Part shown: piece after piece, positions 28,168-30,772 of the stretch | Numbering within the stretch: the first letter of the stretch is position 1 | Layout: each line of letters starts with the position of its first letter | Source: Rhizobium subbaraonis | GTDB taxonomy: Bacteria; Pseudomonadota; Alphaproteobacteria; Rhizobiales; Rhizobiaceae | Direction: 5' to 3' | DNA: 64,000 bases | Assembly: GCF_900220975.1 (NCBI RefSeq) | Contig: NZ_OBQD01000007.1 | Span: 62,001-126,000, forward strand | Program-made: the position numbers and the translations under genes | Notes under the pieces: generated by a model | Databases searched by the model: none | What the model was told of the DNA's origin: nothing | The model's input: the letters and a program-made list of their open reading frames with translations, nothing else

Positions 28168-29061
28168 GTGAGCGAAATCCGCCTCTTCATTTCCACGACA
28201 GAGAAGAACGCCGACGCAATTCTCTCCCTGATGACCGATGCCTTTGAGGACGAGGGATACGCGATCGCGACCATGGAGATCGACGAGAAGCGCGACATCT
28301 GGGAAGCCTCGCTCTACCTGATGATGGACGAGGAAGAGGAGATGCGGGAGCGTTTCGCGAACCTCCTCAAGCCGGCATTCCCCGAGGCGGAGATCCAGCG
28401 TGAGGTCATTCCCGACGTCGACTGGATCGCCAAATCGCTGGAAGGCCTGCAGCCGGTGCGCGCCGGACGTTTCATCGTCCACGGTTCGCATGACCGCGGA
28501 AAGGCGCGGGCGGGCGAGATCGCAATCGAGATCGATGCCGGCCAGGCCTTCGGCACGGGCCACCACGGCACCACCGCCGGCTGCCTGGAGGTCATAGAAA
28601 GCGTCACGCGCGCGAGAAAGATCCGCTCCGCCCTAGACCTCGGCACCGGCAGCGGCGTGCTGGCGATCGCGGTCCGCAAGCTGGCGGCCATTCCGGTGCT
28701 GGCAACCGACATCGACCCGATCGCCACAAGGGTGGCGCGCGAGAACGTCCGCAAGAATGGCATTGCGACCGGGTTGACGCTCGAGACGGCTCCCGGCTTC
28801 CACCACACCGCCTTCCGCCGCCACGGCCCGTTCGACCTCATCATCGCCAACATCCTCGCCCGCCCGCTGATGCGCATGGCGCCGCAACTCGTGGCAAACC
28901 TGGCACCGGGCGGCCAGGTGGTGCTCTCCGGCATCCTCGCAAACCAGCGCTGGAAGGTGATAGCCGCCTACAACGGCGCGGGCCTGCGCCATGTCCGTAC
29001 GATCTGGCGCAATGGCTGGGTGACCATCCATCTCGACAGGCCGGATTTCGACAGGCCGTAA
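28168..29061 (+). CDS. prmA: Ribosomal protein L11 methyltransferase
   Basis: The 297-residue product starts at GTG 28168. The longer open frame overlaps the preceding gene and is not credible. The N-terminal substrate-recognition domain (SEIRLFISTTEKNADAILSLMTDAFEDEG) is followed by FGTGHHGTTAGCLEVIE and the SAM-binding motif ALDLGTGSGVLAIAVRKL, then ATDIDPIATRVARENV and DLIIANILARPLM (the NPPY-equivalent). PrmA trimethylates L11 of the large ribosomal subunit in the cytosol. It follows the monooxygenase gene by 127 bases. Confidence 0.95.
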   Translation: MSEIRLFISTTEKNADAILSLMTDAFEDEGYAIATMEIDEKRDIWEASLYLMMDEEEEMRERFANLLKPAFPEAEIQREVIPDVDWIAKSLEGLQPVRAGRFIVHGSHDRGKARAGEIAIEIDAGQAFGTGHHGTTAGCLEVIESVTRARKIRSALDLGTGSGVLAIAVRKLAAIPVLATDIDPIATRVARENVRKNGIATGLTLETAPGFHHTAFRRHGPFDLIIANILARPLMRMAPQLVANLAPGGQVVLSGILANQRWKVIAAYNGAGLRHVRTIWRNGWVTIHLDRPDFDRP

Positions 29062-29078
29062 CGACCGGGAAAAGAAAA

Positions 29079-29112
29079 GCCTCCCGACCGCGCAGGGTTG
29101 CGGTCGGGAGGC
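29079..29112 (-). terminator. Second of two tandem minus-strand terminators
   Basis: A perfect 13-bp stem (left arm GCCTCCCGACCGC) with an 8-base loop is followed on the minus strand by TTTTCTTTT. On the plus strand it is followed only by TTAAAAAG, so it works best for minus-strand transcripts. It may still stop prmA transcription partly. Confidence 0.8.
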
Positions 29113-29114
29113 TT

Positions 29115-29262
29115 AAAAAGAAAAGGCGGTGCCAGAGACACCGCCTATTGGCCGGTTTCCCGACCTGTCCGCGAGCTAGGAGGAGGAGTGCTCAAGCGGA
29201 CTCTACGTATTCCGAACGCCTACCCGGAGGAGGGAGGAGGAGTGACCGGACAAGCGCCTGAT
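29115..29262 (-). ncRNA. Candidate alpha-r14-type anti-Shine-Dalgarno sRNA
   Basis: Read on the minus strand, this 423-base gene-free interval contains two hairpins whose loops expose pyrimidine-rich anti-SD motifs. Hairpin A (29221-29252) has a 7-bp stem with wobbles and a loop holding CCTCCTCCC. Hairpin B (29167-29201) has the stem GTCCGC/GCGGAC plus an inner GAGC/GCTC and a loop holding CTCCTCCTCCT. A GC-rich terminator hairpin (29124-29146) with TTTTCTTTTT follows, then a second terminator. The alpha-r14 sRNA family of Rhizobiales (which includes Sinorhizobium NfeR1) is about 115-125 nt with a conserved CCUCCUCCC and the same layout. The 3' end at about 29116 is well supported. The 5' end is an estimate. 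Confidence 0.72.
29124..29146 (-). terminator. Terminator of the candidate sRNA
   Basis: An 8-bp stem AGGCGGTG/CACCGCCT with a 7-base loop is followed on the minus strand by TTTTCTTTTT, a strong Rho-independent terminator that sets the 3' end of the candidate sRNA. Confidence 0.85.
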
Positions 29263-29484
29263 CGGAACACCTAGCAAGATCGCCTCACGGCGAAACTTTC
29301 GATTACTTTCGTTTCGAGCGCGTTTCGCGTTCGCTTCGATGCGCGCTTTATAGCTCAGCCGGAAATTTATCACAGCGTTTTTTAAGCATGGGAGCCATGC
29401 ACCTGGCGCATAATGAAACTTTGAGCCTCACGTTACGAGAGGATCTCACATCTCACGGCAAACATCACCGGTTCGCTCCCGGCG

Positions 29485-30549
29485 TCAGGAAGGGCGCGGG
29501 CTTGGCAAAGGCACGTCCGACGCATTGTCGTTGGCCCAGGTACTGATCGCATGGACCTGGCCGGGGATCTGGTCCTGCAAATAGGTTTCGTGCCCCGGCA
29601 GGCCCATCGGATAAAGCGCGTCTCGACTGGCCTCATAGGCCGCACTCTGGTCGGTGCAGAGGCGAATGCGCATGTCCTGCGGCGCGACATCGGTCCGGTT
29701 TTGCAGATTGTCGACCAATCCCGCATCGGAAGAAGGGAGGCGGCCGTCAAAGGCTTGCGTCAGATATTGCGCAGACCGTTCGTTTCGCTCGCGCTCCGTG
29801 GTCGCCCCCAGAACGACCACCATCACGCGCCTGCCATTTCGTGTGGCCAGCCCAACGATGTTGCGCCCTGATGCGCACAGGAAGCCCGTCTTCATTCCGA
29901 TAGTGCCACTGAAGCGGGTCAGCAGCAGGTTGTTGGACTTGATCTCCTTGCCGTCGATCGTGACCGCCGAGGCCATGAAGAACCGCCGGTGTTCCGGGAA
30001 CGCCCGGTCCACTTCCATGCCAAGAATCGCAAGATCGCGCGCGGTCGTATAGTTGTTCCTGTCGAACAGGCCGTTCGGGTTGGAAAAATGGGTGCCAGTC
30101 AGCCCCAGGCGAGCCGATGCCTCGTTCATCCGCCGGACGAAAGAGGCTTCGTCGGAAGCCACGGCTTCTGCAAGGGCGACAGCGACGTCATTCGCCGATG
30201 CGGCGATCATGGCGAAAAGCGCGTCTTCCAGCGTCATCGTCCGCCCGAAGGTCAGGCCGGATTCCAGAAACGCCTGCTTGATCGCGTTACGCGTCATCAT
30301 GACGGGTGTCGTCAGCGTCACCTCGCCGGATCGAAGCGCTTCAAAGACGACGAGCGCCGTCATCAGCTTGGTCGTCGAGGCCGGATACCAGGGCACCCCG
30401 GCGTCCTCCTGATAAAGCACCTGATGATTGTCGGCATCCACGACAAGAACCGGCGTGGCGTTTGCCGCTGCCGATGTGACCCATGTGAAAAGGGATGCGA
30501 TGAACACCAGTCTTTTCCATGGTCGTCCGGCCATTTTGTTCGTGGTCAT
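29485..30549 (-). CDS. D-alanyl-D-alanine carboxypeptidase (PBP5/DacF-like, peptidase S11)
   Basis: The 354-residue product starts at ATG 30549. The open frame extends upstream without support. It has a signal peptide (RLVFIASLFTWVTSAAANA). The serine penicillin-binding motifs are clear: SxxK in WYPASTTKLMTA, SxN in AASANDVAVAL, and KTG in IGMKTGFLCASGRN. This enzyme trims the terminal D-Ala of peptidoglycan pentapeptides in the periplasm and limits cross-linking. The C-terminal part after KTG is shorter than PBP5 and ends in a Pro-rich tail, so membrane attachment by an amphipathic helix is not obvious. The next gene upstream is divergent aminopeptidase P. Confidence 0.93.
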   Translation of the reverse strand: MTTNKMAGRPWKRLVFIASLFTWVTSAAANATPVLVVDADNHQVLYQEDAGVPWYPASTTKLMTALVVFEALRSGEVTLTTPVMMTRNAIKQAFLESGLTFGRTMTLEDALFAMIAASANDVAVALAEAVASDEASFVRRMNEASARLGLTGTHFSNPNGLFDRNNYTTARDLAILGMEVDRAFPEHRRFFMASAVTIDGKEIKSNNLLLTRFSGTIGMKTGFLCASGRNIVGLATRNGRRVMVVVLGATTERERNERSAQYLTQAFDGRLPSSDAGLVDNLQNRTDVAPQDMRIRLCTDQSAAYEASRDALYPMGLPGHETYLQDQIPGQVHAISTWANDNASDVPLPSPRPS

Positions 30550-30772
30550 GTGCCAGTCTCCAGAGGGAAGGACGCCCAAATGACACGATGCGCCGCCAAA
30601 GCACAAGCACTTGCTGCCGCGGCGATCGTGCGCAGGCGGCCGCAATGGTCACGAAGCGCACGGCCAATAGGACGCCGTCGCTTATTCGCAGCCTTCTCGG
30701 TGGACGCAATTCCCCTTCGCCGGCAGTTGCACTAGAGTCCGCTCCGAATCCAGTCTCATTCGGAAACCAGCC

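Follow-up and report, generated by a model that had tools for sequence, protein, structure and literature searches.

What is encoded in the 423 bases that separate a gene ending at 29061 from an ORF that ends at 29485? The two flanking genes, which we take, following the initial annotation, to be prmA and a D,D-carboxypeptidase gene, lie in a window (the whole stretch of 64,000 nucleotides analysed) in which protein-coding content leaves this interval empty of an obvious product. The interval between the convergent genes was given correctly by the initial annotation, which placed in it an sRNA of the αr14 family whose two hairpin loops would pair with Shine-Dalgarno (SD) sequences. Covariation, a promoter pattern of its own and conservation at a single locus give good support to a trans-acting anti-SD sRNA gene as the candidate product (Table 1).

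Table 1. Features of the sRNA locus and its neighbours, in window coordinates.
Feature	Position	Strand	Remarks
prmA (ribosomal protein L11 methyltransferase)	28186..29061	plus	start approximate; convergent neighbour
Second, lineage-specific terminator, between sRNA and prmA	29077..29114	minus	
Intrinsic terminator (29124-29146) and U-rich tail	29115..29146	minus	
Hairpin 3 (H3)	29150..29165	minus	GGUCGG-GAAA-CCGGCC; anti-SD absent; 6 of 6 pairs with change on both sides
Hairpin 2 (H2)	29167..29201	minus	loop ACUCCUCCUCCUA, anti-SD; stem sequence nearly invariant
Hairpin 1 (H1; outer and inner stems)	29203..29274	minus	loop UCACUCCUCCUCCCUCCU, anti-SD
Predicted 5' leader	29278..29341	minus	matches leader of small-protein gene in L054
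-10 element CTATAA	29348..29353	minus	transcription start predicted near 29341
LsrB-type (LysR) box TATGC-N7-GCATGGCTCCCATG	29387..29412	minus	T-N11-A from 29410 to 29398
D,D-carboxypeptidase gene	29485..30645	minus	ORF from first possible start; upstream, same strand as sRNA

The minus strand of 29115-29277 contains three hairpins and a terminator. Both hairpins with CCUCC-type loops that had been proposed are present, and none of 200 shuffles is as stable as the fold of 29115-29262 (-60.8 kcal/mol, z -3.68). The sRNA nevertheless extends beyond its earlier description: the hairpin placed at 29221-29252 is real but is merely the inner part of H1 (29203-29274, 72 nt), whose outer stem, CTAGGTGTTCCGA with TTCGGAATACGTAG, had been overlooked, as had the third hairpin at 29150-29165. 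H1 carries CUCCUCCUCCCUCCUCC and H2 carries CUCCUCCUCCU, and the loop motifs have mean unpaired probabilities of 0.88 and 0.998, respectively; the loop-1 motif is thus exposed as claimed, except that its last two C are paired. The exact sequence CCUCCUCCC occurs only in loop 1, as loop 2 reads CUCCUCCUCCU and neither the H3 loop nor the terminator loops contain it. Both copies of CTCCTCCTCC in the 64-kb window are at the sRNA locus (0.15 copies expected), and two copies were reached in none of 100 shuffles. Across the genome (6.58 Mb searched), ACTCCTCCTCC has 16 copies versus 8 for the reversed control, and 10 of the 16 are pairs inside the sRNA locus and four αr14 copies. Two terminators were recovered where the initial annotation had put them, at 29124-29146 and, with slightly wider limits than the proposed 29079-29112, at 29077-29114. 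Among 30 aligned rows, the sequence of the second is limited to the window's own locus (L044), L045 and L052, which places it outside the conserved RNA.

Evidence for selection on the structure comes from related loci. Plain MAFFT alignment misaligned H1 in distant rows, so that RNAalifold lost this hairpin on alignment A1 (from which the near-copies L051 and L062 were excluded); arm permutation, a subset of 12 of the 30 loci (alignment A2) and an alignment fitted to a covariance model were therefore used instead. H1 arms pair with their own partners at -30.4 kcal/mol on average versus -20.3 when partners are permuted between loci, and none of 10000 permutations was as low (30 sequences). In the model-fitted alignment of 85 distinct rows, which by its construction leans towards structure, double changes occur at 38 of 50 pairs, with a covariation score of 0.468 versus 0.182 for shuffled data (0 of 500 shuffles) and at most 0.092 for slid pairs. 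The plain alignment of 12 rows has changes on both sides at 16 of 50 pairs (0 of 500 shuffles); one of the five measures in this test, further pair types, was matched by 12 of 500 shuffles. All 24 H1 pairs covary, each having both partners changed in at least one sequence of the 85 rows, and covariance support for the hairpins in related genomes, on which the initial annotation had staked its reading beforehand, was thus obtained. The RNA structure is under selection, with stems rewritten and pairing kept.

H2 is an exception, with 7 of 10 pairs invariant in the 85 distinct rows and 8 of 10 in the 28 rows found by BLASTN. Its invariance is partly a product of how rows were chosen, because a pattern scan fixed that stem for many of the 85. 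The distant orthologs L261 and L262 do not share the fixed stem, and pairing of the loop with SD sequences does not account for its near-invariance. Across many genera the stem at 29167-29201 is nearly fixed, unlike H1, perhaps reflecting a protein or RNA contact.

The rewriting of H1 also bears on a rival proposal in which the locus serves prmA chiefly by terminating transcription or forming the end of its mRNA, and in which the C-rich loops regulate nothing. Such a role would suit a position between convergent genes and the strong terminators at the RNA's end, but the loops are kept while the H1 stem is rewritten, the promoter pattern described below points into the RNA, and the T-run of the listed terminators is on the minus strand. 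We regard this proposal as extremely improbable.

Of 297 family genomes, 41 gave a BLASTN match to the RNA. A covariance model (R1), built from 12 of the 30 loci fetched after that search, matched 88 of 394 GTDB-family genomes at ≥45 bits, with one such copy each (hand count of the table), and 109 of 394 at E 0.01 or better. Because the other 306 of 394 gave no R1 match at ≥45 bits and nothing convincing appeared outside the family, the RNA is far from universal. The top score outside the family, among 297 genomes drawn from the order, was 40.4 bits in G629, a candidate rejected because prmA is absent from the 4 kb fetched and likeness to the model is confined to the terminator part. G423, also outside the family, was rejected for absence of prmA, as were three weak matches within the family (L265, L266 and L269), none of which has prmA in the stretch fetched. 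The L265 match (positions 1808-1920, genome G081; 59.9 bits) is an αr14 copy and lies shortly before a tRNA gene.

A scan of named genomes with the hairpin-2 pattern returned at least 118 stretches in at least 80 loci; the genera among the matches listed are Rhizobium, Sinorhizobium/Ensifer, Shinella, Agrobacterium, Neorhizobium, Pararhizobium and others. Four loci from unrelated organisms were taken as chance and dropped, which left 76 rhizobial loci among the matches listed, 72 of them also matched by R1. When these 76 were searched together with 20 earlier loci, 92 of 96 matched R1 at 1e-7 (among the matches listed), and L133, L169, L195 and L197 had no match at that level. Promoter and synteny counts cover 90 of the 92 loci. 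In the two others, L165 and L208, the mechanical rule mentioned below finds no CDS; the box is visible in L165, and L208 is cut off. The RNA is also present in genome G005 (contig C8) and in Rhizobium rhizolycopersici DBTS2, and its ortholog in Sinorhizobium meliloti 4H41 occupies L192:3726-3891 on the minus strand.

The neighbours of the RNA are conserved as well. Convergent prmA lies downstream in 84 of 90 loci; among the six where it is missing, L159, L183 and L194 end soon after the RNA, and L070, L147 and L166 lack it despite a readable flank. Upstream and divergent in 82 of 90 loci is pepP, presumably aminopeptidase P from a reading of the protein, and the remaining eight have either a short upstream flank or an intervening carboxypeptidase gene, as at the window's own locus. 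Among 30 loci, a carboxypeptidase gene stands between pepP and the RNA only there and in L045. The carboxypeptidase gene lies about 200 nt upstream of the RNA on the same strand, which invites the explanation that the RNA is a processed 3' UTR of the carboxypeptidase mRNA and has no promoter of its own. This origin was rejected as highly improbable, given that only 2 of 30 loci have the gene next to the RNA, and that a box and -10 element, which 85 of 90 loci carry, stand between gene and RNA in the window.

The pattern found in those 85 loci is a box, TATGC-N7-GCATGGC(A/T)CCCATG with variants, before a CTATA(A/T)-like sequence. Box and -10 element are 33 bases apart in 67 loci and 34 in 18, within an allowed range of 30-39; both elements were chosen by similarity, which makes the count a selected one but leaves the sharp spacing unaffected. 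Of the 85 boxes, 83 contain TGC-N7-GCA, 81 TGC[AG]-N6-GCAT and 47 TGCA. No box was found in 5 of 90 loci, including L199, which is cut off. A scan of the window with a sigma-70 consensus of the E. coli type returned no promoter, and no good -35 hexamer was seen before the sRNA.

At the sequence level, the promoter layout, an LsrB-type box followed by CTATAA, is the same as that published for NfeR1, where LsrB acts as an activator from a TGCA-N6-GCAT site (-72 to -60) that it binds ahead of a CTTAGAC-N17-CTATAT promoter (PMC10746234). The window box reads TGCG-N6-GCAT, as against the TGCA-N6-GCAT of NfeR1, and fits the proposed VtlR box, GCAT-N3-TG-N3-T (PMC7486931), only with a mismatch. VtlR, the ortholog of LsrB, activates three genes in Agrobacterium tumefaciens, namely abcR1, atu1667 for a small protein and vrsA for an sRNA (PMC7486931), and in Brucella melitensis it activates abcR2 and three DUF1127 genes (PMC12595884). 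Given the box pattern and these targets, as described in the available text of the sources, LsrB control of the window RNA is a good inference. A relaxed promoter pattern has four sites in the window's own genome (none for the reversed control): at the sRNA locus, ∼140 bases ahead of the first αr14 copy, in front of a DUF1127 gene and on contig C52. The DUF1127 gene lies after the αr14 cluster and encodes a 47-residue protein (Pfam 62.2 bits), and the relaxed pattern is absent before the other αr14 copies of the genome.

Between the same promoter and the RNA, 43 of 89 loci carry a CDS of 46-57 residues with a ribosome site (L199, the ninetieth, is cut off). For 29 of these 43 the stop codon falls within the 5' arm of H1; for the others it comes just before H1. 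The distance from box to RNA is 255-272 bases with the CDS (39 of 43, the loci that have a box) and 84-153 bases without it (46 of 46). CDS presence was labelled by hand; a mechanical rule recovers all 43 plus five more ORFs, which run across the promoter, show no likeness to the small protein by eye and were counted as absent. Searches with the small proteins tested gave no DUF1127 hit in Pfam and nothing relevant in NCBIfam. Alignment of their profile by hhalign to four DUF1127 proteins of this genome gives a probability of 88.3 (E 2.9e-6, 26 columns).

The CDS is missing in the window. In comparison with L054, which has it, the box, the -10 element, the leader and the last bases before H1 are kept and the coding body is gone; the two leaders align with a local score of 52, versus at most 29 in 2000 shuffles. 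CDS presence changes at least six times on a tree built from PrmA of 80 loci (5-6 in bootstraps, 26.9 with shuffled labels), and well-supported branches force only two of these changes. The 10 of 90 loci outside this tree are L070, L159, L183, L194, L166, L147, L190 and L137 (no usable PrmA), L201 (a duplicate) and L199 (cut off). As distant genera have a CDS of the same kind, the simplest reading of these patterns is that it was lost repeatedly while the RNA stayed in place; the root of the tree is not fixed, which makes gains formally possible too.

The small protein might instead be the functional product wherever it is kept, with the RNA only protecting its mRNA and the window copy a decaying leftover. 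The CDS that follows the shared promoter in 43 of 89 loci and the hhalign probability of 88 to DUF1127 proteins of this genome would agree with this. However, the 46 loci without the CDS, which include whole clades of Ensifer/Sinorhizobium and Shinella, all retain the box and an RNA that matches the model, and this reading is very unlikely.

Membership in αr14, as claimed initially, and the view that the RNA has just the layout of that family did not hold. In the available text of the sources, αr14 RNAs have three hairpins with CCUCCUCCC in each loop (PMC10746234, PMC7143759). The window RNA departs from this in having two anti-SD loops together with a hairpin loop and a terminator loop free of the motif, and the highly variable stems expected of αr14 are found in H1 and H3 and not in H2. 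The Rfam model for αr14 (RF02344) gives 30.6 bits on the window RNA and 20.5 in a genome-wide search, below the gathering cut-off of 58.8, and membership was rejected on this score; at gathering score, αr14 was not matched in the 64-kb window. Nor was there an Rfam match for the RNA up to E 0.5 in seven named loci that carry it. Four true αr14 copies elsewhere in the genome score 99.7-122.1 bits with RF02344, and R1 gives three of them 20.1-27.8 bits (the fourth is not listed). Orthologs at the prmA locus from two other genera approach αr14, at 59.0 bits (L262) and 52.8 bits (L261) with RF02344, so that kinship is likely although membership fails. Both have three CCUCCUCCC loops, including that of the terminator, and a similar box, and bridge the window RNA and αr14; in L071, CCUCCUCCC is also found in the terminator loop.

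An ordinary αr14/NfeR1 copy, that is, a paralog of the genome's four αr14 genes with the same layout, would account for the shared anti-SD loops, for the promoter pattern held in common with one αr14 copy and for the scores of L262 and L261. It is an unlikely identity for the window RNA, whose own RF02344 scores fall short, whose terminator loop lacks the anti-SD motif and which has an extra H3, a long two-part H1 and a nearly fixed H2 stem; the low R1 scores of three of the four αr14 copies also argue against it. In sequence, the window RNA looks like a divergent branch of the αr14 kind, and most likely it shares ancestry with αr14 and works like it.

The computed features, namely structure, covariation, promoter pattern, conservation of the locus and absence of a coding body between the conserved leader and the RNA, point to a probable stand-alone anti-SD sRNA gene that would be activated by LsrB/VtlR, act in trans and form a divergent branch of the αr14/cuckoo RNAs derived from an mRNA 3' end. 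Transcription of the minus strand would begin at the predicted start near 29341 and end at the terminator (29115-29146), from a housekeeping-type promoter that is probably activated by the LysR regulator LsrB/VtlR. The C-U-rich loops of H1 and H2, predicted to be held out and complementary to SD sequences (GGAGG), would most likely pair in trans with the ribosome binding sites of several mRNAs. Pairing would block translation and hasten mRNA decay, as for NfeR1 and AbcR. The RNA itself probably descends from the 3' end of an mRNA, behind a small DUF1127-like protein gene that has probably since been lost in the window's lineage.

Blocking of SD sites in trans is the likeliest mechanism, judged by the anatomy of the RNA and by analogy with NfeR1, whose anti-SD loops are reported to silence ntrB and two transporter mRNAs (PMC10746234). 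Nutrient uptake is a possible target class, carried over from NfeR1/AbcR. A more far-reaching account is held tentatively, at a little under an even chance: the RNA would represent a distinct rhizobial sRNA family, unmatched in Rfam, that originated as the 3' end of a small DUF1127-like mRNA and was freed several times independently by deletion of the coding part, the LsrB-type promoter falling directly onto the RNA. It would then be a second output of the redox regulator LsrB, parallel to NfeR1, and the fixed H2 would have a role beyond SD pairing.

The locus adds an anti-SD RNA, Rfam-unmatched in the seven named loci tested, to the repertoire of well-studied symbionts such as Sinorhizobium meliloti and Rhizobium leguminosarum. 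Its promoter pattern ties it to a regulator that published work connects with oxidative stress and symbiosis (PMC8844928, PMC11975290). Moreover, the series of loci illustrates a possible route from an mRNA tail to a regulatory RNA gene in its own right, with promoter and leader the same, the coding body missing and the RNA kept.

No sRNA beside prmA was found in the literature searched, mostly papers outside subscription; the RNA may stand under a number in transcriptome tables for S. meliloti or R. leguminosarum. SmrC9/sra32 is likewise a conserved single-copy rhizobial sRNA but has SMc01933 and proS as its flanks and another mapped 5' end (PMC2245857, PMC2573895), and it was rejected as the same gene on account of its flanks. 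AbcR1/AbcR2 (αr15) resemble the window RNA in their CU-rich anti-SD motifs (PMC7143759) and in activation of AbcR1 by LsrB, and differ in being encoded beside lsrB and binding Hfq (PMC8844928). No Rfam match to an AbcR-type family was obtained for the window RNA.

RNAs of the cuckoo family have two to four hairpins. Those described in the available text of PMC3927594 have three and four adjacent hairpins with CCUCCUCCC in every loop, compared with two anti-SD hairpins and one exact motif in the window RNA. In Rhodobacter sphaeroides, ccaF1 (DUF1127) is co-transcribed with CcsR RNAs, an association labelled CIN1 (PMC10253847). A DUF1127 gene followed by a CcsR-like sRNA is not found at the window locus, and this arrangement fits its presumed ancestral state. 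In the window's own genome (G000), three tandem αr14 copies are followed by two DUF1127 genes in a CIN1-like cluster (C47:58777-60342; L016, L251 and L252), with a box-type promoter in front of the first αr14 copy and another in front of the first DUF1127 gene. On contig C50 (L014), a hairpin-like stretch with CCUCCUCCC in its loop directly precedes an αr14 copy, as in the four-hairpin cuckoo RNAs, and at C39:79763 (L286) one strong hairpin, whose loop contains CACUCCUCCUCCCAG, lies just before a small ORF.

CcsR1 (RF02791) was not among the Rfam matches up to E 10 on 28950-29500, and 289 genomes of the class gave no CcsR1 match over the cut-off and weaker ones in 9 genomes. Deep orthology with a Rhodobacter-type CcsR at the prmA locus was rejected after inspection of G699 and of C39, neither of which is beside prmA; G699 has a CcsR1-like four-copy cluster (matches below the cut-off) that differs from the window RNA in this position. 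Cuckoo RNAs (CcsR1-4) of Rhodobacter share with relatives of the window locus the placement of anti-SD hairpins behind a small DUF1127-like gene, and they differ from the window itself, which has no CcsR1 match and no protein gene.

The nearest comparison is with αr14/NfeR1. The window RNA differs in scoring below the αr14 threshold, in having two anti-SD loops rather than three, an additional H3 and a nearly fixed H2 stem, and in occurring as a single copy at the prmA locus. It agrees in its anti-SD loops and its terminator, and an LsrB-type box with CTATA(A/T) stands at nearly equal spacing before one αr14 copy of the same genome.
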